From Anaerolineales bacterium (GTDB lineage Bacteria; Chloroflexota; Anaerolineae; Promineifilales; Promineifilaceae), in the NCBI GenBank assembly GCA_020432595.1, contig JAGQGA010000228.1, positions 1 through 8,088 of the forward strand: a DNA stretch of 8,088 nt, given 5' to 3'. Shown here piece by piece: positions 138-7,568 of this stretch. A model generated the notes under the pieces. That model ran no database searches. It worked only from the letters and a program-made list of their open reading frames with translations, and was not told the origin of the DNA. The position numbers and the translations under genes are program-made. Each line of letters opens with the position of its first letter. Position 1 is the stretch's first letter.

Positions 138-981
138 TTACGGCGTTAACCCATCCGGCACGCCATCGGGAAACAACTGCTGAATCGCTTCCTCAATGCG
201 GGCGGCACGGTTGCCAGGGTTGGGGTGGGTGCTCATAAATTCGGGGGGCGCACCACCAGATGTTTCTTCCAAAATTTTCATCACGCCAATGAGGGCGCGG
301 GGATCATAGCCAGCGTCTACCATGAACTGTACCCCCAAGATGTCGGACTGTAGTTCATCTTCGCGGCCGTATTTCATGTTAACCATTTGCCCGACCATGA
401 CTGCCATTTGCGCTGTCCGTTCATCGCCAGAAGCGACAACCACCGCCCCAGCGATGCCCTCAGTCAGGTTGGCTTTGGCAATGCGCTGCGCCGAATGCCG
501 CGCCACCACGTGGCCTTTTTTTTTTCTCATGCCCCAGCACCCCGGCAAGTTGCCCCTCGGTTTCGAGCCGGTCAAACAGTGCTTTGGTGATAAAAACAGG
601 GCCGCCGGGCAGGGCAAAGGCGTTGATGGTTTGCGGGTCGGCCAGTAGGGTGAATTCAAACTGCCATTCAGTGTCACGGGCGGCACTGCGGTTGACGATG
701 CTAAACCCAACATCATCGAGGTATTGCTGTAGCTGGGGGTCGGGCAGCGCACCGCCATGCTGGGCTGTCATTTCAGGCACAGCTTGCAACCCCATAGCTA
801 TTTCCTGGCGGGGGGTAAGGGCAATGTATTGATCTTCGCCGGTGACGGGGTTGTATTCTTTGGATGAATAGTAAGAAATGAGGGCAAAGGCGATCATGAT
901 GACGGCCACGATGAGGCGGCCTTTGCCACTGGTACGTCCACCAAAAGCGGGAGCAGTGCGGTATGTTCTGCGTGAACCCAT
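138..981 (-). pseudogene. M48-family zinc metalloprotease, broken at the HExxH motif
   Basis: This is a membrane-anchored M48 (Ste24/BepA-like) peptidase gene split over two frames. The N-terminal frame starts at 981 behind a clear GAGGAAGG ribosome site. It carries a membrane segment at residues 23-38 and the M48 signatures INAFALPGGPVFIT and LAGVLGHE, with H151 and E152 as the first half of HExxH. A run of ten A (516-525) follows, after which the protein continues in another frame as GHVVARHSAQR. That frame contains the likely third zinc ligand in REDELQSD and the C-terminal STHPNPGNR block. The intact family motif would be HExGH, so the run is seven bases too long. Removing seven A leaves 837 nt, an in-frame protein of 278 aa, a normal length. 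As read, the product ends soon after the A run and lacks the second zinc His. It is either a real inactivating mutation or a homopolymer assembly error. Family assignment is firm; function as a membrane or periplasmic quality-control protease is inferred. Confidence 0.9.
516..525 (-). other. Ten-A homopolymer that frameshifts the metalloprotease
   Basis: On the coding strand the order is CATGAG, ten A, then GGCCAC. The family motif HExGH would leave three bases between GAG and GGC. A one-base slip to nine A would restore the frame but give HEKKKGH, whose zinc-ligand spacing is still wrong. Only a three-base run gives a working motif. Confidence 0.85.
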
Positions 982-1098: not shown

Positions 1099-1593
1099 TT
1101 ATTCGACAACAGGGACAAACTCCTCAACTTCCATCGCTTCGTAAATGCCACCAGCGACTGCCCCAAACATGATGTGGGTGGCAACCATGAGCCAGCTTCG
1201 CATGGGGAAGAACCAGGGGAAAATGAGGGTGAGCGTATAGAAGTTGATGGCGTAAAAGGCAAGCCCCAGCAGCCCGCCGCCAAGGATGCCGCCAATTAAC
1301 CCACCTCGGTGAATGACGTAGGCGATGATGAGGGAGAAAGCAATGGAAAGGGCATAGTGGACAATGAGGGCGGCGACAACGGCCGTTAAATCAAACGTTG
1401 CTGGTGGTGCCAAAACCCCTTCGCCCAGCAGTGGTGATGCAAACAGCCGCACAAAGACCCAGACATTGCCCCCCAGCACCAGCGGCGAGACAAACCAGTT
1501 CAAAATGGCAAACACCGTGCCGCCAATGATCCCACCCCAGACAGCCGCGCTCCAATCCACAAGCTGCCGCATTCGTTTTGTTTGCACTTGCAT
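1099..1593 (-). CDS. Small four-helix integral membrane protein, function unknown
   Basis: The product is 164 aa and almost entirely hydrophobic, with probable membrane segments near residues 15-35, 66-92, 96-120 and 132-152. Conserved-looking features are the glycine-rich GGIIGGTVFA and GGILGGGLLGLA stretches, a PPATFDL loop, and the INFY and FPWF motifs. From memory it resembles small bacterial membrane proteins often labelled, without functional proof, as sodium:proline symporter-like; I would not transfer that name. The C-terminus EAMEVEEFVPVVE is acidic. I chose the ATG at 1593 over the TTG at 1599 because AGGAGGG at 1602-1608 sits eight bases before the ATG but only about two before the TTG. 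The gene is 147 bp downstream of the methyltransferase and may have its own transcription start. Confidence 0.8.
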   Translation of the reverse strand: MQVQTKRMRQLVDWSAAVWGGIIGGTVFAILNWFVSPLVLGGNVWVFVRLFASPLLGEGVLAPPATFDLTAVVAALIVHYALSIAFSLIIAYVIHRGGLIGGILGGGLLGLAFYAINFYTLTLIFPWFFPMRSWLMVATHIMFGAVAGGIYEAMEVEEFVPVVE

Positions 1594-1601
1594 AGACAAA
1601 T

Positions 1602-1608
1602 CCCTCCT
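1602..1608 (-). promoter_or_regulatory. Strong ribosome binding site that decides the membrane-protein start
   Basis: The coding strand reads AGGAGGG with eight bases to the ATG at 1593. The alternative TTG at 1599 would be too close. This is the strongest Shine-Dalgarno in the window. Confidence 0.75.
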
Positions 1609-1632
1609 ATTTCTGTCTTATTCATACAGACC

Positions 1633-1666
1633 AAGTGCCCTGCATCGTCTACAGTTCGTGGCACTT
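1633..1666. repeat. Short inverted repeat in the gap before the membrane-protein gene
   Basis: The arms aagtgcc (1633-1639) and ggcactt (1660-1666) form a perfect 7-bp stem with a 20-base loop. It lies about 40 bases upstream of the membrane-protein start. It could be an operator or an RNA hairpin; no flanking T run supports a terminator. I see no convincing promoter elements in 1594-1740. Confidence 0.4.
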
Positions 1667-1740
1667 TAAGCATTCTAATGACACCACAAATAAGAAAAGT
1701 AGACAAATCATACCATGTTCCTTACCTGCAAGATGCCATT

Positions 1741-2619
1741 TTATGGCTTGCCAGGCCAACGCCCCAAAAAGTCTAGCTGGTGGGCGATGTAGACGAGGTC
1801 GCCGCTTTCGATTTGGGCGTGGCGTTGGGCGATCCAGTTGTCAAAAACGGCCGTTTCCAATTCTGCGTGCCCTGCCAGTGCCCCGTGCATCGTGTGGACA
1901 ATAAAGTGGAGGAAGTACGCTTCATCGGCTGGATACGCCCCGTTTTCCCCCGTAAAAATCACCCAATCTGATCCACCCGCTGCCAAAATGGTGCCGCCGG
2001 CCGCCCGTAGCTGGTGAAAAAGATGCCGCCCGGTTTGACTGTCGCCGGATAAACGGCCGTTAATCACCCGCTCATCCATCGTTTGATGATACAGCCGTTC
2101 GATCTTTGCGTCTAACGCTAGGTCAATCGTTGGCTGCAAAATTGTGGCTCCGTCAAAGTTGATGGAAAAATAAAACAGCCCCCCGGGAGCCAACAAGTCA
2201 AACAGCTTTGGCAACGTCGCCGCCACGTCGGTCAAATCCAGCACGGCATGGGCAATGAGTAAATCCCACTGCCGCTGGCCGCTGTGCTGGGCGGCGTAAT
2301 CATAAAAATCGGCCGTTTCCAGCTCCAGCCGCACGGTGGCTGGCCGCGCTGCCAGCCGCTTTTGCGCCGTGGCAATGTTGTCTGGCTGTTCATCAACAGC
2401 CGTATAAACCGCGTGCGTCAGCATATTGTGGTTCACCAGCCGTTCAACCATGGTGCCAATGCCTGCGCCAATTTCCAGCACGCGCAGCGGCGACTGTGGC
2501 GACGCGCCGGGCAGTTCCATCGCCAATGTTTGCCACACATGTTTGTTCAGGGCGCGGTCGTCCACGCTCGTTTTGGCCGCCAGATAGCGGGGGAAGGTGT
2601 AGGAGAAGGGTTCGGTCAT
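1741..2619 (-). CDS. Class I SAM-dependent methyltransferase
   Basis: The 292-aa protein has a Rossmann-type methyltransferase core. Motif I is VLEIGAGIG at residues 47-55. The acidic residue that usually holds the SAM ribose is D76 in YTAVDEQ. The motif around residues 119-129, DLLIAHAVLDL, is followed by LLAPGGLFYFSINFDG. The C-terminal 120 residues (ERLYHQTMDERVINGRL onward) are not a standard methyltransferase piece and probably bind the acceptor, which cannot be named from sequence. It is the last gene of the five-gene string, starting 45 bp after the glycosyltransferase stop with no Shine-Dalgarno; the DNA just upstream is an inverted repeat. By context it probably methylates the product of the neighbouring GTP-derived pathway or its sugar. 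That is inference; the family call is firm. Confidence 0.85.
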   Translation of the reverse strand: MTEPFSYTFPRYLAAKTSVDDRALNKHVWQTLAMELPGASPQSPLRVLEIGAGIGTMVERLVNHNMLTHAVYTAVDEQPDNIATAQKRLAARPATVRLELETADFYDYAAQHSGQRQWDLLIAHAVLDLTDVAATLPKLFDLLAPGGLFYFSINFDGATILQPTIDLALDAKIERLYHQTMDERVINGRLSGDSQTGRHLFHQLRAAGGTILAAGGSDWVIFTGENGAYPADEAYFLHFIVHTMHGALAGHAELETAVFDNWIAQRHAQIESGDLVYIAHQLDFLGRWPGKP

Positions 2620-2633
2620 GGGTGTGGAGGGCA

Positions 2634-2695
2634 GGGGAGCAGGGGAGCGGAGGAGCAGGGGAGATCACCCCTGCTCCCCTGCTCCCCTGCTCCCC
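2634..2695. repeat. Long G-rich/C-rich inverted repeat holding the glycosyltransferase stop
   Basis: Arms 2634-2661 and 2668-2695 are built from GGGGAGCA units and their complement and pair over 28 bp with two imperfect positions (2649/2680 and 2651/2678). The loop is six bases. The stop codon of the glycosyltransferase (2665-2667) lies in the loop, so its last residues, about GSRGAGEQG, are encoded by one repeat arm. Confidence 0.85.
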
Positions 2696-3771
2696 CGAAT
2701 TTTGGGAAATGTCGCTAAAAATTGGTGTATTTTTGCCATGCTCTCCCCCCACGTCGGCCAGCGATGACTGTGAGCCAGGGCAGAGAGGCTGAGGCGGGTG
2801 AGTAGGGCGCGGTCTTGGTGTAGGATGGTTAGTTGCTGCGCTAAGGCGACGGTATCGTCGGGGGCAATGAGAAAGCCGTTGTCACCGTCGTGGATGATTT
2901 CGCTCGCGGCACCGGCCGTTGTGCCAATGGCTGGTAGCCCAAAAGCCATTGCTTCCAGGTAGACAATGCCAAACCCTTCGTAGCTGGATGGGACGACGAG
3001 CAGGTGGCTGCGGGCAAATTGGTCGGCTAGGGCGTCATCGGACAGAGAGCCGTGGAGGGTGACGTTGGCGGCGAGGTTGTACTGGGCAATTTGGCACTGG
3101 ATGTGGGTAGTGTAGGCGGGGGAAACGGCCGTTTCTCCCACCACCGCCAGCCGCCAATCCGACCGAGGGAGGGTTGCCAGTGCGTCTAGCAGCGTGTGCA
3201 GCCCTTTGCGTGGGATGAGGTTGCCGACAAAGAGCAACTGCAAGGGGGCTGTTTGCTGCGCCCTTGCCGCTACTTCAGATGGGGTGATAGTTGGGTTAAA
3301 TCGGTCTCCGGCGGGGGTAGCAACCACAAACGGCCGTTTTTTCCCCACCAGTTCCTCCGTCACCCGCCGCGTGGTTTCGCTGTTAAAGACAAAGCCGTCT
3401 ACGCTGGCAAGATAACGCCGCTCCACCTGCCGGTAGAGCCAGTTTTGCCACGCTGGGCGGGCTTCGCTGCAGCGCAAATGGTGGACAATGCTGACCAATG
3501 GCACTTGCCCGCGCAGCCGTCGGTTGAGCCAAAAGAGGGAGGGGTGGTTGAGTTCGTCTTGGAGGAGGAGATCAAAACGGCCGTTTTCCACCTGTTTTTG
3601 CAGCTTCCGTGACCAATTATGCGCCAAATGCCGCCCATAGTTCGTCCACGGCAGCGACACGATCTCCACCGTCTCCCCTGCCGCCCGCAGGTGCGCCACC
3701 AACTTCCGGTCATACAAATAGCCGCCAGAAACGGTGTCAAGCGTGCCGTAGATGATTAGCCCGATGTGCAT
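2665..3771 (-). CDS. GT4-family glycosyltransferase
   Basis: The 368-aa protein has the two-domain GT-B layout. The N-terminal half has the glycine-rich start IIYGTLDTVSGGYLYD (residues 7-21), HHLRCSE at 97-103, and FNSETTRR at 129-136. The C-terminal half has FVGNLIPRKG (181-190), with R188 and K189 typical of nucleotide-sugar binding. It also has the EX7E motif from E265 to E273 in SYEGFGIVYLEAMAFG. These are standard for retaining GT4 enzymes, which are usually cytoplasmic and use NDP-sugars. The donor and acceptor are unknown. It lies 77 bp after the pterin-synthase-like gene, which suggests a small-molecule acceptor rather than a cell-wall polymer; no other sugar genes are nearby. The final residues come from an inverted repeat and are probably not functional. 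No Shine-Dalgarno precedes the ATG. Confidence 0.9.
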   Translation of the reverse strand: MHIGLIIYGTLDTVSGGYLYDRKLVAHLRAAGETVEIVSLPWTNYGRHLAHNWSRKLQKQVENGRFDLLLQDELNHPSLFWLNRRLRGQVPLVSIVHHLRCSEARPAWQNWLYRQVERRYLASVDGFVFNSETTRRVTEELVGKKRPFVVATPAGDRFNPTITPSEVAARAQQTAPLQLLFVGNLIPRKGLHTLLDALATLPRSDWRLAVVGETAVSPAYTTHIQCQIAQYNLAANVTLHGSLSDDALADQFARSHLLVVPSSYEGFGIVYLEAMAFGLPAIGTTAGAASEIIHDGDNGFLIAPDDTVALAQQLTILHQDRALLTRLSLSALAHSHRWPTWGESMAKIHQFLATFPKIRGSRGAGEQG

Positions 3772-3780
3772 GGGGGAATA

Positions 3781-3842
3781 GGACGCAGATTTACCTGATT
3801 ATCCTGATGTTTTAATCAGTTCAATCAAGCAAATCTGCGTCC
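3781..3842. repeat. Inverted repeat after the pterin-synthase-like gene
   Basis: ggacgcagattt (3781-3792) pairs perfectly with aaatctgcgtcc (3831-3842). An inner pair, ctgatta (3795-3801) and taatcag (3813-3819), can form a second stem. It fills the gap between the stop at 3849 and the glycosyltransferase start at 3771. There is no T run to make it a classic terminator. Confidence 0.8.
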
Positions 3843-3848
3843 CATCTC

Positions 3849-4229
3849 TTATTTCAACGCCAACCGATAGCTTGCCCAAGCGATCTCGTTTTCCCAAATT
3901 TGCACCGTGAGGGCGTTGAGGTTGGGGGCATTGATGCGCTCGGCCAGCTTTTCGCAGAAAATGCGGGAGAAATGCTCAATGCTGGGGTTTAGCCCGGCAA
4001 ATTCCGGCAAATCGTTGAGCGTTTTGTCCTTATAATGGCCCACCAACGCTTCTAAATTGCTTTCGATGTCTACGATGTCTACCAGATAGCCATGCTTGTC
4101 GAGGGTTTCGCCCTCAAGCTGGACTTCGACATAATAATGGTGGGAGTGCCACTGGTTTTCGGCTCCCCAATCGCCGCCGACCAGAAAATGCTGGCCGACG
4201 AAATCACGTTTAACGGCAACTTTGTACAT
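3849..4229 (-). CDS. Divergent 6-pyruvoyl-tetrahydropterin synthase / QueD-like protein
   Basis: The 126-aa protein has the T-fold PTPS layout and normal length. The probable zinc ligands are H14 (DFVGQHF), H28 and H30 (QWHSHHY, in place of the usual HGH). P82-S83-x-E85 matches the conserved PTxE block, and E113 in IWENEIAWASY matches the Glu that anchors the pterin ring. Two catalytic positions are unusual. The Cys normally four residues before HGH is E24, and the Asp-His pair normally before xxLN is K67-D68 in YKDKTLND. Loss of the Cys recalls PTPS-III proteins, where Glu replaces it and the enzyme yields 6-hydroxymethyl-dihydropterin; loss of the His goes further. It therefore should not be called QueD or PTPS without testing. 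It sits between the dehydrogenase and the glycosyltransferase and is probably co-transcribed. No Shine-Dalgarno is visible. Confidence 0.85.
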   Translation of the reverse strand: MYKVAVKRDFVGQHFLVGGDWGAENQWHSHHYYVEVQLEGETLDKHGYLVDIVDIESNLEALVGHYKDKTLNDLPEFAGLNPSIEHFSRIFCEKLAERINAPNLNALTVQIWENEIAWASYRLALK

Positions 4230-4241
4230 AATTGGGAAATT

Positions 4242-4310
4242 GGAGATTGGGGATTGGAGATTGGAGATTGTGAACCTTCACGAATCTCCAATCTCCAATC
4301 TCTAATCCCC
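4242..4310. repeat. GATTGGAGATT inverted repeat containing the dehydrogenase stop
   Basis: Bases 4251-4269 pair with 4283-4301, and pairing continues outward to 4242/4310 with few mismatches. Inside, gtgaa (4270-4274) pairs with ttcac (4277-4281). Nearly the whole 69 bases can fold. The TAG stop of the dehydrogenase (4302-4304) lies in the right arm. The repeat is of the same family as 5372-5418 and 109-135. Confidence 0.85.
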
Positions 4311-5354
4311 ATATTGAAAGATAATTTGTAAAACCTCACCCGGCTGCTCATCAAGCAACCGATATGCTTCGGCGGCTTGGGCGAGGGGAAAGCGGTGGGT
4401 GATGAAGGGGGTGGGGTTGTGGCGTTGGAGCATGTCCCAGGCGGTTTGCAGGCGGCGGGGCTTGGTCCAACGGCCGTTCCACTGCGGCGCAATGGTGCTA
4501 ACCTGGCTGCTGATGAGCCGGATGTGGTTGCGGTGAAAATGGCCGCCCAGGTTGAGGGTGGCCTGCTTTTGCCCGTACCACGAGCCAACGATAATCCGCC
4601 CGCTGTAGCCTGCCGCCGCAATGGCTTGATCCAGCGCGGCCGGATTGCCCGATAGCTCATAAACGAGGTCGGCTCCGGCAAACGGCCGTTGCGGCTGGTC
4701 TTCACCCTGCCGTTCCTGTAATCGTTCCCTCAGTTCTGCCACCACATCCAGCCGCATGGGGTCAAGGCTGGCGTGTGCGCCCCGCTTTGCCGACCATTCC
4801 CGCCGCAGCGGGTAAGCATCGAGGGTGATGAGGCTGGCGAGGGGCAACTGTGCCAGCAGCGAGGTCGTTAGCAGCCCAACAACCCCTTGCCCAAAGACGG
4901 CCACCTGTTCGCCAATGATTGGCTGCCCGTCCATGAGGAAGGAAACGGCCGTTTCCATGTTGGGCAAAAACGCCGCCATCTCTGCCGTGACCTCCTCTGG
5001 TACCGGCAAACAATCTTCCAGCCGCGCCGTGAAGTGAGTTTGGTGGGGCTGGAAGGAGAAGAGTAAACGGCCGTTCCATCTCTCATCTACCCCTACCCCC
5101 GTTTTAATTACCCGCCCCACCGCCGCATAGCCATATTTGAGCGGATACGCCATTTCCCCGGCCAGAGACGCAATGGTGGCATCGGCGGCAATGCCCGTGG
5201 GCATTTGGCCGCGATAGAGCAACATTTCCGTACCGGCACTGATGGCAGAAACGACAGTTTGCAGCAGCATCTCCCCCGCCGCCGGGCGCGGCAGCGGCTC
5301 TTGGCGCAGTTCAACCTGGTGGGGGGCAGTGAAGAAAAGGGCGTGGCGGGACAT
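4302..5354 (-). CDS. Zinc-free medium-chain dehydrogenase/reductase, BchC-like
   Basis: With the start at 5354 (MSRHALFF) the protein is 350 aa, a normal MDR length. A longer in-frame start at 5420 would add 22 residues that only translate the adjacent inverted repeat, so I rejected it. The coenzyme fold shows FGQGVVG at residues 154-160, and D179 at the end of the next strand suggests NAD(H). The catalytic zinc site of alcohol dehydrogenases is absent: the Cys of the GxCGTD motif is replaced in ISAGTE (38-43), and the GHE motif reads GYAAVGRV (75-82). The four-Cys structural zinc loop is missing too. ISAGTE plus GYxxVGRV recalls BchC, the bacteriochlorophyllide dehydrogenase, so an oxidation or reduction of a hydroxyl or carbonyl side chain is plausible. 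No photosynthesis genes are nearby, so BchC itself is unlikely. It lies 55 bp after the GTP cyclohydrolase fusion. Confidence 0.85.
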   Translation of the reverse strand: MSRHALFFTAPHQVELRQEPLPRPAAGEMLLQTVVSAISAGTEMLLYRGQMPTGIAADATIASLAGEMAYPLKYGYAAVGRVIKTGVGVDERWNGRLLFSFQPHQTHFTARLEDCLPVPEEVTAEMAAFLPNMETAVSFLMDGQPIIGEQVAVFGQGVVGLLTTSLLAQLPLASLITLDAYPLRREWSAKRGAHASLDPMRLDVVAELRERLQERQGEDQPQRPFAGADLVYELSGNPAALDQAIAAAGYSGRIIVGSWYGQKQATLNLGGHFHRNHIRLISSQVSTIAPQWNGRWTKPRRLQTAWDMLQRHNPTPFITHRFPLAQAAEAYRLLDEQPGEVLQIIFQYGD

Positions 5355-5371
5355 GGGACATGGGGAAGACT

Positions 5372-5418
5372 GGGGATTGGAGATTGGAGATTTCACCAAT
5401 CTCCAATCTCTAATCTCC
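5372..5418. repeat. 21-bp inverted repeat containing the GTP cyclohydrolase fusion stop
   Basis: Bases 5372-5392 pair with 5398-5418 around a five-base loop, tcacc. Two positions (5374/5416 and 5379/5411) are G-T pairs on the plus strand and C-A mismatches in the minus-strand RNA. The TAG stop of the upstream gene (5410-5412) is in the right arm. The sequence is closely related to the repeat at 4242-4310. Confidence 0.9.
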
Positions 5419-6741
5419 AAATCTCACATTTTCAACATCCGCAATCAACACCAAATCCTTGCCGACTTGGTGGTATTGATGGTTGACGAGTTGGGGGAAA
5501 AAACGGCCGTTTTGCCCCGTTTTTTGTGGTTCGACGGCTGTCAGGCCACCCAAATAAAGGGGTGCCACCGTGACGACAACCCGATCCACCACGCCAGCGG
5601 TGAGAAAGCTGCTGATAACCTGCGACCCGCCTTCCACCATTAGGCTGTGGTAGCCAGCTTCCTTGAGCCGGGGCAGCAGAGCCGTTAGGGAAATACGGCC
5701 GTTTTTGTTGGCGGGCAACTGCCACACCTGCGCCCCGGCCGCTTCCAGCGCGGCTTGTCGCACCGGGCCGGCGGTGGGCAGGGTAGCGATGATGGGGCGA
5801 CGGGTCATGATTTTGATGTCAGACGGGCAGCGCAAATGGCTGTCGAGAACAACGGGCTGTGGGTTTTCCCCTGGCACCAGCCGCACCGTCAGGCTGGGGT
5901 TGTCGGCCAGCACCGTGCCAATGCCCACCAAAATGCCGTCGTGGTTGGCGCGAAGTTGGTGGGTGAAACGCATGGATTCGCTGCCACTGATGGCGGTGGG
6001 CTGGCCGCGCTGGACGGTGATGGAGCCATCCAAACTTTGGGCGTAGCTGAGGGTGACAAAGGGGCGGTCAGAGCGGTGGCCGGGTTGAAGCTGGGAAAGA
6101 GGGGAGTGGAGGGGAAAACGGCCGTTTGTCCCCACCGCCACCCGTTCCAAATCCAGCAAATGGCGCATCCGCTTGACCTTGGTCTCCAGATACGCCGCGT
6201 TTTCTTCATGGCTTGCCACTTGCAGCGGCACTCGTTCCGTCACCCGCAGCCCTGCCGCCGCCAAACTTTCAATCTTAGCCGGGTTGTTAGTCAGCAGCCG
6301 CAGCGACCGCACCCCCAAATCATGCAGCATCAGTGCCGCCACCGAATAATCCCGTTCGTCCGCCTGGTGGCCGAGCAGCAAATTGGCATCTACCGTGTCA
6401 TACCCTTCATCCTGCAAATTGTAGGCACGAAGTTTGTTCCGCAGACCAATACCCCGCCCCTCTTGCCGCAAATAAAGAATGATCCCTGCTCCTTCGCTGG
6501 CGATAAGCTTGATCGCCTGGTTAAGCTGTGGCCCACAGTCGCAGCGCAGTGACCCCAGCACGTCGCCGGTAAAGCATTCGGAATGGATGCGAACGAGAAC
6601 GTTGTCTCGCCGGGTAACGTCTCCTGCCACCAATGCCAAATGCTCCTTATCGTCTATGTCTGTGCGGTAAAGTGACAGGGTGAACGTGCCATCGGCCGTG
6701 GGAATGCGGGCAGAGGTTTTGGAGACAATTGGCTGCGTCAT
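5410..6741 (-). CDS. GTP cyclohydrolase II fused to a RibD-type reductase
   Basis: The 443-aa protein has two domains. Residues about 10-200 are a complete GTP cyclohydrolase II. HSECFTGD and SLRCDCG supply the zinc ligands C56, C67 and C69, RQEGRGIGL is at 92-100, and Y107 in LRAY aligns with the catalytic Tyr105 of E. coli RibA. TNNPAK and ERVPL follow. Known activity: GTP to 2,5-diamino-6-ribosylamino-pyrimidinone phosphate, formate and diphosphate. After a linker (about 200-224), residues 227-443 form a RibD C-terminal (DHFR-like) reductase with SLDGSI at 236-241, LRANHDGILVGIGTVLADNP and MVEGGSQ. No RibB or deaminase domain is present. A reductase acting directly on the cyclohydrolase product resembles the fungal and archaeal order (Rib7/ArfC), not the usual bacterial one. 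It heads the five-gene string, so it may serve a special pathway rather than riboflavin; both are possible. The last residues RFGD come from an inverted repeat. Confidence 0.93.
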   Translation of the reverse strand: MTQPIVSKTSARIPTADGTFTLSLYRTDIDDKEHLALVAGDVTRRDNVLVRIHSECFTGDVLGSLRCDCGPQLNQAIKLIASEGAGIILYLRQEGRGIGLRNKLRAYNLQDEGYDTVDANLLLGHQADERDYSVAALMLHDLGVRSLRLLTNNPAKIESLAAAGLRVTERVPLQVASHEENAAYLETKVKRMRHLLDLERVAVGTNGRFPLHSPLSQLQPGHRSDRPFVTLSYAQSLDGSITVQRGQPTAISGSESMRFTHQLRANHDGILVGIGTVLADNPSLTVRLVPGENPQPVVLDSHLRCPSDIKIMTRRPIIATLPTAGPVRQAALEAAGAQVWQLPANKNGRISLTALLPRLKEAGYHSLMVEGGSQVISSFLTAGVVDRVVVTVAPLYLGGLTAVEPQKTGQNGRFFPQLVNHQYHQVGKDLVLIADVENVRFGD

Positions 6742-6748
6742 GCGCTTA

Positions 6749-6778
6749 ATGTTACCGTTTTGGGGGTACTTTTGGCAA
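6749..6778 (-). promoter_or_regulatory. Possible promoter of the GTP cyclohydrolase operon
   Basis: On the minus strand TTGCCA (6778-6773) and TAACAT (6754-6749) are separated by 18 bp and sit just before the ATG at 6741. Transcription from it would start at or near the ATG, giving a leaderless message, which fits the lack of a Shine-Dalgarno. The match to a sigma-70 consensus is modest and the call is tentative. Confidence 0.3.
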
Positions 6779-6812
6779 AATCCCTCATGATTTATGAAGG
6801 CGATGTTTTCAT

Positions 6813-7568
6813 TTACGGCCGTTTTCCCACAAAGCCGCGTGCTTGCCAGGCGGCGTAGAGAAGGATTGAGCCAGCAACGGCGGCGTTGAGCGATTCGACG
6901 TGGCCGCGCATGGGCAGTTGCAGCAGGTAATCGCAGCTTTTGCCCACCAAACGACGCAGCCCGTCCCCTTCATGCCCCACGACAATGGCGATGGGGATGT
7001 TGAGGTCAACTTCTTCCAGCGAACGGGCATCTTCGGCCAAATCCATGCCGACGACCCAAATGCCGGCCGTTTGTAGCTGGCGCATGGTGCTGACAAGGTT
7101 GGTGACTTGGGCAATATGCAGGTGTTCGGCCGCGCCGGAGGAGTATTGGACAACGGCAGGGGTGATTTCAGGGGCGCGGCGGTCTTGCACCACCACGCCA
7201 TGCACGCCACAAATCTCGGCGGTGCGGAGCAGGCTGCCAATGTTTTGCGGGCCGTGCAGGAGGTCGAGGAGGAGGAGAAACGGCCGTTCTTCCCGCCTTT
7301 CCGCCACCCCCAAAATCTCATCCACACTGCTGTAAGGGTACGCCCCCACCTCCAACGCCACCCCTTGGTGCCTCCCATCCTGCGCCAACTGCCCCAGCTT
7401 TTGCTTGCTGGCCGTCTGCACCGGCACCCGCCGCCCCCGCGCCGCCTGCACAAAGACATTGTGGGTTTTCTTATCCAACCCCTCTTGTAACCAAAGCTGG
7501 TGCAGATCCCGGCGGCTGCCACGCAGGGCTTCGAGGACGGTGTTGCGACGGGTAAGAATGTCGGCCAT
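6813..7568 (-). CDS. rlmB: 23S rRNA 2'-O-methyltransferase of the SpoU/TrmH family (RlmB type)
   Basis: The 251-aa protein has the RlmB layout. An N-terminal substrate-binding domain (about 1-75, RRNTVLEALRG and HQGVALEV) is followed by a knotted SPOUT methyltransferase domain. Motif 1 is LHGPQNIGSLLRTAE at 104-118, with N109 and R115; motif 2 is IVVGHEGDGLRR near 194-205; motif 3 is LPMRGHVESLNAAVA. Motif 1 has Gly where many members have Asp before the Pro. By family it methylates a ribose in large-subunit rRNA (G2251 in E. coli). Some relatives modify other rRNA or tRNA sites, so the exact base is not certain. It follows cysS by 67 bp, a neighbourhood seen in many bacteria. No Shine-Dalgarno precedes the ATG. 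The stop codon overlaps a variant of the window's palindrome (AAACGGCCGTAA). Confidence 0.9.
   Translation of the reverse strand: MADILTRRNTVLEALRGSRRDLHQLWLQEGLDKKTHNVFVQAARGRRVPVQTASKQKLGQLAQDGRHQGVALEVGAYPYSSVDEILGVAERREERPFLLLLDLLHGPQNIGSLLRTAEICGVHGVVVQDRRAPEITPAVVQYSSGAAEHLHIAQVTNLVSTMRQLQTAGIWVVGMDLAEDARSLEEVDLNIPIAIVVGHEGDGLRRLVGKSCDYLLQLPMRGHVESLNAAVAGSILLYAAWQARGFVGKRP

Follow-up and report, generated by a model that had tools for sequence, protein, structure and literature searches.

The window analysed here, the whole 8,088-nucleotide stretch of contig JAGQGA010000228.1 from an Anaerolineales bacterium, carries a string of five genes on the minus strand. The first encodes a fusion of GTP cyclohydrolase II (GCH II, RibA) with a pyrimidine reductase (RibD_C), and it is followed by genes for a zinc-less dehydrogenase, a protein with the fold of 6-pyruvoyltetrahydropterin synthase (PTPS), a glycosyltransferase of family 4 (GT4) and a methyltransferase. 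Here it is proposed that the string is, on balance, probably a dedicated cluster making a GTP-derived, glycosylated and methylated pterin-like compound and not riboflavin, with the chemistry predicted from the families. The genes are as follows:

5410-6741, minus strand: RibA-RibD_C fusion (GCH II at residues ~9-196 and pyrimidine reductase at 227-431, from Pfam)
4302-5354, minus strand: zinc-less medium-chain dehydrogenase, BchC/threonine/polyol dehydrogenase-like (from Pfam, start set by homologues)
3849-4229, minus strand: PTPS-fold protein (PF01242, 3.4e-26)
2665-3771, minus strand: GT4 family glycosyltransferase (PF00534, Glycos_transf_1, 2e-36)
1741-2619, minus strand: class I S-adenosylmethionine-dependent methyltransferase (PF08242, Methyltransf_12, 2.9e-12)

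From the fusion to the methyltransferase the gaps are 55, 72, 77 and 45 bp, confirming the first-pass annotation, which had described five genes on one strand with gaps of 45-77 bp and had placed and named them in agreement with Pfam and NCBIfam. Close relatives of the window proteins are labelled Anaerolineales, Ardenticatenaceae or Chloroflexota.

The fusion protein matches GTP_cyclohydro2 (5.3e-69) and RibD_C (PF01872, 1.7e-44), and the Pfam scan found no deaminase domain in it. Its RibA half scores over the GCH II family cut-off (TIGR00505, 263.3 against 205.85 bits) and has the zinc ligands Cys56, Cys67 and Cys69, which are kept in 51 of 51 family members. Tyr107, the counterpart of E. 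coli Tyr105, is a tyrosine in 49 of the 51 relatives, with one gap and one methionine; because the window RibA keeps it, the enzyme should itself make the deformylated diaminopyrimidine. The reductase half meets the RibD_C family (TIGR00227, 156.7 against 150.15 bits) and is below the archaeal equivalog (TIGR01508, 118.4 against 186.45 bits). Its nearest solved chain is 6p8c, a 2,5-diamino-6-ribosylamino-4(3H)-pyrimidinone 5'-phosphate reductase (9.4e-30), and the bacterial RibD 2b3z is second to it (5.6e-25).

Other carriers of the string differ in the source of the cyclohydrolase product. The sole methionine in the Tyr105 column belongs to the RibA of Streptomyces fungicidicus (locus L082), in which the string and RibA are separated by a creatininase-family gene. 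SCO6655, which has the same Tyr-to-Met change, was reportedly found by Spoonamore in 2006 to stop at the formylated pyrimidine. ArfB, a creatininase-family protein, deformylates this pyrimidine, and ArfA, ArfB and ArfC are the enzymes that start riboflavin synthesis in archaea. The creatininase-family protein of L082 has its best scores, both below cut-off, against the models for MftE (141 bits) and creatininase (99.7 bits) and scores weakly against the ArfB model (37.0 against 180 bits), so a deformylase role for it is a guess. In locus L084 a creatininase-family gene is found about 5 kb from the string. GTP cyclohydrolase III (GCH III) is encoded within the string of Haloarcula sp. GH36 (L081, 3.4e-81) and of Haladaptatus halobius (L051, 7.6e-87), being in the latter a second copy in the genome, and Halorussus aquaticus (genome G025) has a single GCH III away from the string. 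By sequence, the cyclohydrolase thus appears interchangeable among lineages (GCH II, GCH III, or a Met-type GCH II with a creatininase-family gene nearby), which suggests that the intermediate is a diaminopyrimidine. For the identity of the intermediate, the best evidence is that different cyclohydrolases converge on this one compound.

The open reading frame of the dehydrogenase extends to 5420, and its homologues begin at the ATG at 5354. The protein matches ADH_zinc_N just below the cut-off (3.9e-7, 30.5 against 31.8 bits) and ADH_zinc_N_2 above it (4.2e-6, 28.2 against 27 bits), with GQGVVG as its nucleotide motif. Compared with E. coli Tdh, the ligand Cys38 is replaced by Ser and His63 by Tyr in 99 of 100 family members (the other has a gap), and the structural-zinc loop is absent from the family, so that catalytic and structural zinc ligands are gone in 99 of the 100 and the earlier description of this enzyme as zinc-free was right. 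Its named relatives are BchC and the threonine, sorbitol, ketose and secondary-alcohol dehydrogenases. For BchC itself the equivalog score is far under the cut-off (TIGR01202, 65.6 against 291.25 bits). BchC, too, has no such zinc ligands, and it converts a secondary alcohol to a ketone.

The PTPS-like protein has a T-fold PTPS domain (PF01242, 92 bits, cut-off 22.4) and is far under the NCBIfam cut-offs for QueD (46.9 against 89.25 bits) and 6PTHBS (34.1 against 125.5 bits). An alignment of 69 such proteins from cluster loci with E. coli QueD showed that the zinc ligands His14, His28 and His30 are present in the window protein and that all three are kept in 60 of the 69, His14 in every one. 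Six proteins have HNH in the zinc-His columns and three, from Streptomyces and Methylosinus, have HHA; in the proteins from these two genera HGA stands at the stretch where most have HSH. Glu113, the counterpart of QueD Glu110, is kept in 69 of 69. In QueD we take Glu110 to anchor the pterin, Cys27, Asp70 and His71 to form the catalytic triad, and the histidines to bind the zinc. Cys27 has no counterpart in the PTPS-like proteins (a Cys occurs in that stretch in 1/69), Asp70 corresponds to Lys in the window and to Arg or Lys in 62/69, and His71 corresponds to Asp in the window and in 57/69. The first-pass annotation had stated that the usual catalytic residues are lost, and this holds for the Cys-Asp-His triad but not for the zinc histidines. 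Judging from these residues, the pocket looks still suited to a pterin and the known PTPS reaction is unlikely. The lost triad and the sub-cut-off scores led to the rejection of QueD and 6PTHBS as identities for this protein.

The solved relatives of the window GT4 include 6kih (Tll1590, 6.7e-19) and, behind it, the tetrahydrobiopterin glucosyltransferase 5zer (3.6e-12) and PimA 4n9w (1.4e-11); its resemblance to the pterin glucosyltransferase does not exceed that to GT4 enzymes with other roles, 6kih and PimA among them, and its acceptor is a prediction.

The co-occurrence of the families was examined with an alignment of the dehydrogenase against one genome for each of 84,980 species, which gave 523 relatives, of which the best 80 loci were kept. 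The counts over these best 80 are conditional on the dehydrogenase, because the loci were found by it, and gene calling was mechanical (longest open reading frame), with some starts and short genes wrong. Where at least 4.5 kb were available downstream (50 loci), relatives on the same strand as the dehydrogenase were found for PTPS-like in 45, GT4 in 43 and the methyltransferase in 32, and where at least 2.5 kb were available upstream (69 loci), RibD_C was found in 54 and RibA in 41. Counting loci cut by contig ends, as many of them are, 23 of the 80 have the full set of six domains no more than 6 kb from the dehydrogenase, and 31 have all but RibA in that range. The taxa include Chloroflexi/Anaerolineae, Desulfobacterales and other Deltaproteobacteria, Binatota, Cohnella and Pseudonocardiales, and among the archaea Methanotrichaceae, Bathyarchaeota and Halobacteria; gene strings recur among the 107 bacterial and archaeal loci examined. 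Annotated plasmids of haloarchaea, Streptomyces fungicidicus and Methylosinus trichosporium OB3b have the dehydrogenase-PTPS-GT4-methyltransferase string or part of it. A plasmid of Streptomyces sp. NBC_00019 (L085) has a PTPS homologue of the SCO6650 kind with no cluster neighbour. The pairwise distances of RibD_C, dehydrogenase, PTPS, GT4 and methyltransferase correlate (r 0.69-0.91 in 34 loci, 0/1000 permutations per pair), which shows a shared history only, since shared ancestry was not removed. Co-location of the families is above chance. The cluster has probably spread between lineages, as its scattered occurrence suggests.

Relatives of the CDP-alcohol phosphatidyltransferases are found within 6 kb of the dehydrogenase in 25 of the 80 loci (19 on the same strand), and relatives of the flippase-like LPG_synthase_TM in 26 (18 on the same strand). 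In the haloarchaeal and Streptomyces plasmids, annotated transferases are found close to the string. Further genes present in some loci encode an aldo-keto reductase, an acyltransferase or a protein resembling 2-phosphosulfolactate phosphatase. That the product is lipid-linked and exported is no more than a reasonable guess.

As a second sample, 201 genomes were taken evenly from across the phylum to which G005 belongs (G005 being a Chloroflexota chromosome already known as a carrier), with gene distances read from tables by eye. The PTPS-like profile matched 53 of these genomes, 16 strongly (at least 168 bits) and the rest with at most 75 bits, and the dehydrogenase matched 36 at E 1e-40, of which 31 reached at least 287 bits and 12 at least 427 bits. 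Every one of the 12 strongest dehydrogenases has a PTPS-like gene no more than 4 kb away, as do 9 of the next 19. Three of the 12 (G005, G018, G201) were already in the best-80 set, leaving nine counted as new, and L118, which is the same contig as L038, was excluded from the newly drawn loci. Within 6 kb, GT4 is beside PTPS in 8 of these nine and the complete set is present in 1. Among the 14 best weak PTPS loci, 4 (L132-L135) have a dehydrogenase relative within 1.5 kb; these show RibD_C-dehydrogenase-PTPS with GT4 alongside, as a more divergent form, and were chosen for the neighbourhood view after their dehydrogenase neighbours had been seen. Conserved co-occurrence of the five families in the order of the window therefore held in part: the families recur across phyla and dehydrogenase-PTPS-GT4 is tight, but the complete set was found in one of the nine new loci and in 23 of the first 80. 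The first-pass annotation had held that its idea would fail if the five genes were rarely together; this does not apply to dehydrogenase-PTPS-GT4 and applies in part to the complete set. A strictly conserved five-gene string was rejected, with rib genes and methyltransferase adjacent less often, and from the neighbour counts in the new loci the five-gene string is one arrangement, of which dehydrogenase-PTPS-GT4 is the tightest part.

The genetic potential for riboflavin synthesis was examined in 20 other Chloroflexota carriers, two of them single-chromosome genomes (G005, G014). GCH II is present in all 20, as one copy in 18, and neither lumazine synthase (RibH) nor 3,4-dihydroxy-2-butanone 4-phosphate (DHBP) synthase (RibB) was found in any of the 20, both families being found in 14 of 14 control genomes. 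A separate complete riboflavin set, raised in the first-pass annotation as a point to look at in the same genomes, is thus missing. The annotation had also held that the idea would fail if the fusion were the only GCH II and reductase of a genome while the other four genes varied freely; the cluster GCH II or an unlinked RibA-RibD_C is indeed the sole GCH II in 18 of the 20, but this does not restore a riboflavin function, because the remainder of riboflavin synthesis is missing from those carriers. A riboflavin role of the fusion was rejected for the tested Chloroflexota carriers on the lack of RibH and RibB. Four carriers with no rib genes in the string have them elsewhere, as a fusion in G008 and as neighbours in G018-G020. 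In the latter three (L040, L071, L073), aldo-keto reductase, acyltransferase and flippase-like genes are found upstream of the dehydrogenase in place of the rib genes.

In the phylum sample, of which 200 of the 201 genomes were used with lists compiled by hand, 73 genomes lack RibH, and of these all 14 that have the dehydrogenase (at least 287 bits) also have GCH II, compared with 6 of the 59 that lack the dehydrogenase (Fisher 1e-10, kinship not removed); leaving out G005, the known carrier, the count is 13 of 13. Of the 12 genomes with the strongest dehydrogenases, 11 lack RibH. Besides the cluster RibD_C, Cohnella and two Desulfomonile genomes carry RibB, RibH and a GCH II of the riboflavin type, and in Cohnella a second RibA is located in the cluster. 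As to GTP cyclohydrolase I (GCH I), neither PF01227 nor FolE2 was found in 4 of the 20 carriers (G006, G008, G009, G017), which are metagenome assemblies and may be incomplete, and neither type was found within 10 kb of the cluster PTPS in the 25 genomes searched, with positions compared by eye. The cluster PTPS-like gene is the only PTPS-family gene found in 17 of the 20 carriers. On contig 62 of Desulfomonile G021 (the genome of L046), a second PTPS-family gene, probably an ordinary QueD, lies about 150 bp from FolE2 and off the cluster.

In the proposed pathway, RibA would open GTP to 2,5-diamino-6-ribosylaminopyrimidinone 5'-phosphate and RibD_C would reduce C1', with no deamination, to 2,5-diamino-6-ribitylaminopyrimidinone 5'-phosphate, as expected from the functions of their families. 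The zinc-less dehydrogenase may then oxidise the 2'-OH of the ribityl chain, and on chemical grounds the 2'-ketone could condense with the 5-amino group to form 7,8-dihydroneopterin 3'-phosphate with no GCH I. The PTPS-like protein, with its zinc site, may close the ring or remodel the side chain by chemistry other than that of the triad, after which GT4 would add a sugar and the methyltransferase a methyl group to predicted acceptors. Where the CDP-alcohol transferase and flippase-like genes are present, the product would probably be lipid-linked and exported. In the GCH I reaction, dihydroneopterin arises when an Amadori rearrangement moves the carbonyl from C1' to C2' and the ring then closes. 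Reduction at C1' plus oxidation at C2' would equal this Amadori step and give the same amino-ketose as a monophosphate, which would answer the objection of the first-pass annotation that PTPS cannot use the product of GCH II; the clash can be resolved if RibD_C and the dehydrogenase yield dihydroneopterin phosphate. More tentatively than the existence of a dedicated cluster, it is possible that this is a second natural GCH I-free route to pterins, in which GCH II (or GCH III and a deformylase), the reductase and the zinc-less dehydrogenase lead to 7,8-dihydroneopterin phosphate, and the re-purposed PTPS, GT4 and methyltransferase lead to a new class of pterin glycosides, lipid-anchored on the outer face of the membrane in many lineages. 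The absence of both GCH I types in four carriers fits such a route.

Several observations weigh against a dedicated pterin pathway. Kinship among genomes was removed in no test. In the phylum sample, 10 of the 31 strong dehydrogenases have no PTPS within 4 kb, and 4 of the 16 strong PTPS-like genes (G105, G169, G185, G208) have no such dehydrogenase in the stretch fetched, the dehydrogenase of G169 and G185 being on another contig beside GCH II. Of the nine new strong loci, 2 have a neighbouring rib gene and 4 a neighbouring methyltransferase gene. RibH is lacking in 14 of 31 genomes with the dehydrogenase against 59 of 169 without it (p 0.31), and 17 of the 31 have RibH. Lacking the catalytic zinc, the dehydrogenase might instead be a reductase, and none of the lipid-related genes lies within the window. 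The remaining points bear on particular alternatives. One zinc His is replaced in 9 of the 69 PTPS-like proteins, which, together with the lost triad and the HGA of the Streptomyces and Methylosinus proteins, favors a product that is not a pterin, namely a ribityl- or ribosyl-diaminopyrimidine (or a ring formed with another carbonyl compound) that is glycosylated, methylated and perhaps joined to a lipid, with the dehydrogenase acting on the sugar part and the PTPS-like protein being a T-fold enzyme with an unrelated reaction. An alcohol resembling ribitol phosphate could be used by the products of the CDP-alcohol transferase and flippase-like genes. The invariant Glu113 at the pterin-anchor column of QueD argues against a non-pterin product, as does a dehydrogenase beside a pterin-fold protein, which fits pterin formation; this alternative is considered unlikely, although still credible. 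GCH I is present in most carriers, as full-length PF01227 in 12 of the 20 Chloroflexota genomes, a fragment in one and FolE2 in 3 more, so that PTPS could there draw on the ordinary GCH I product, dihydroneopterin triphosphate, with RibA-RibD_C a separate branch sharing the operon. This is very unlikely given the lack of GCH I genes around the cluster PTPS, the four carriers (possibly incomplete) with neither type, and the presence, inside the string or close to it, of a cyclohydrolase II or III in the Streptomyces and two haloarchaeal copies.

A role of the cluster in the synthesis of a pterin or deazapurine already known (folate, biopterin or queuosine) would agree with the database names of the PTPS-like protein (6-carboxytetrahydropterin synthase or similar) and with its being the only PTPS-family gene found in most of the Chloroflexota carriers. 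The QueD and 6PTHBS scores contradict it, some carriers have a separate PTPS-family gene, such as the one next to FolE2 in Desulfomonile G021, and to our knowledge GT4 and methyltransferase have no place in the known routes to these compounds, which makes this explanation highly improbable. Least probable of all is a riboflavin function for the first gene, with no relation between it and its four neighbors: RibA and RibD_C are riboflavin families and rib genes are sometimes away from the rest, but the 20 carriers have no lumazine or DHBP synthase, the order recurs across phyla and the distances of the five domains correlate in the 34 loci, shared ancestry included. The proposal of a dedicated pterin-like pathway is preferred here.

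The closest solved relative of the window PTPS-like protein is SCO6650 of Streptomyces coelicolor (PDB 3d7j, 6e-14), deposited as uncharacterised, whose relative in Streptomyces fungicidicus (L082) is encoded in a dehydrogenase-PTPS-GT4-methyltransferase string with GCH II nearby. According to its structure paper, SCO6650 is said to have neither zinc nor PTPS activity. The Streptomyces sequences differ from that of the window, which keeps three zinc histidines, in having no third one, because of the HGA there. The cluster RibA of Streptomyces fungicidicus shares the Met of the SCO6655-type GCH II, whereas the window RibA keeps Tyr. SCO6655 is placed under riboflavin metabolism, with an expression opposite to the predicted flux (PMC2853524), and the archaeal start of riboflavin synthesis is described as GCH III, deformylase and reductase acting before deamination (PMC3403918). 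The ArfA-ArfB-ArfC route has the same chemistry up to the ribitylamino compound, and GCH III occurs in the L051 and L081 strings; however, that route leads to lumazine synthase and the window cluster to PTPS, GT4 and methyltransferase.

In Chlamydia, RibA and TrpF reportedly bypass FolE and convert the GCH II product to a pterin, as Adams is said to have described in 2014. There, as in the pathway proposed here, the C1' carbonyl would be moved to C2', by an isomerase in Chlamydia and by a reductase and a dehydrogenase in the proposed route. The toxoflavin cluster has GCH II, RibD-like and methyltransferase genes outside riboflavin synthesis, in common with the window string, and is not known to include a PTPS-like protein, a zinc-less dehydrogenase or a GT4. 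Pterin glycosides of cyanobacteria and Chlorobium are made by UDP-glucose:tetrahydrobiopterin glucosyltransferase and CtPGT. These likewise have a sugar on a pterin, but the substrate is tetrahydrobiopterin, a GCH I product. In the available parts of the open-licence papers searched (including PMC2853524, PMC13259868, PMC1971073 and PMC3403918), no account of this cluster or pathway was found; the component families are known, and the pathway formed from them had no account in that literature.

If the proposal is true, some Chloroflexota have GCH II genes that are automatically annotated as riboflavin genes but belong to an unrecognised pathway, as do second GCH II copies in other organisms, and these Chloroflexota would need external riboflavin. 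Pterins could then be made without GCH I, the SCO6650-type PTPS homologue would have a function, and bacteria and archaea would share a compound with redox cofactor, UV screen and membrane head group as candidate roles. The culturable carriers include haloarchaea, Methylosinus and Cohnella.

Upstream of the string, the window encodes RlmB (6813-7568) and the end of CysS, and a scan of the window for tRNA and Rfam families gave no tRNA and no Rfam match at gathering score. Short related repeats (GATTGGAGATTGGAGATT and its inverse) occupy two intergenic gaps, at 4230-4310 and 5367-5430, and occur also at 105-125. Between GT4 and the methyltransferase, at 2625-2700, there is a purine-rich repeat, CAGGGGAGCAGGGGAG, by which the GT4 frame is seemingly lengthened by a few unlikely residues, the last residues running into the intergenic repeat. 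An M48 peptidase (138-981, minus strand) lies in two overlapping frames, each matching part of PF01435, with a T run near ~520, and its split may be a frameshift or a sequencing error. The palindrome AACGGCCGTT has 13 exact sites in the window, from 1378 to 7288, and 17 with at most one mismatch (0.42 expected for the latter). Exact copies are missing from 124 of 140 loci; the palindrome is also frequent in related Chloroflexota loci (e.g., L001, L004, L006, L010, L027 and L031), and it looks like a clade-specific highly iterated palindrome, of which HIP1 is the cyanobacterial example.

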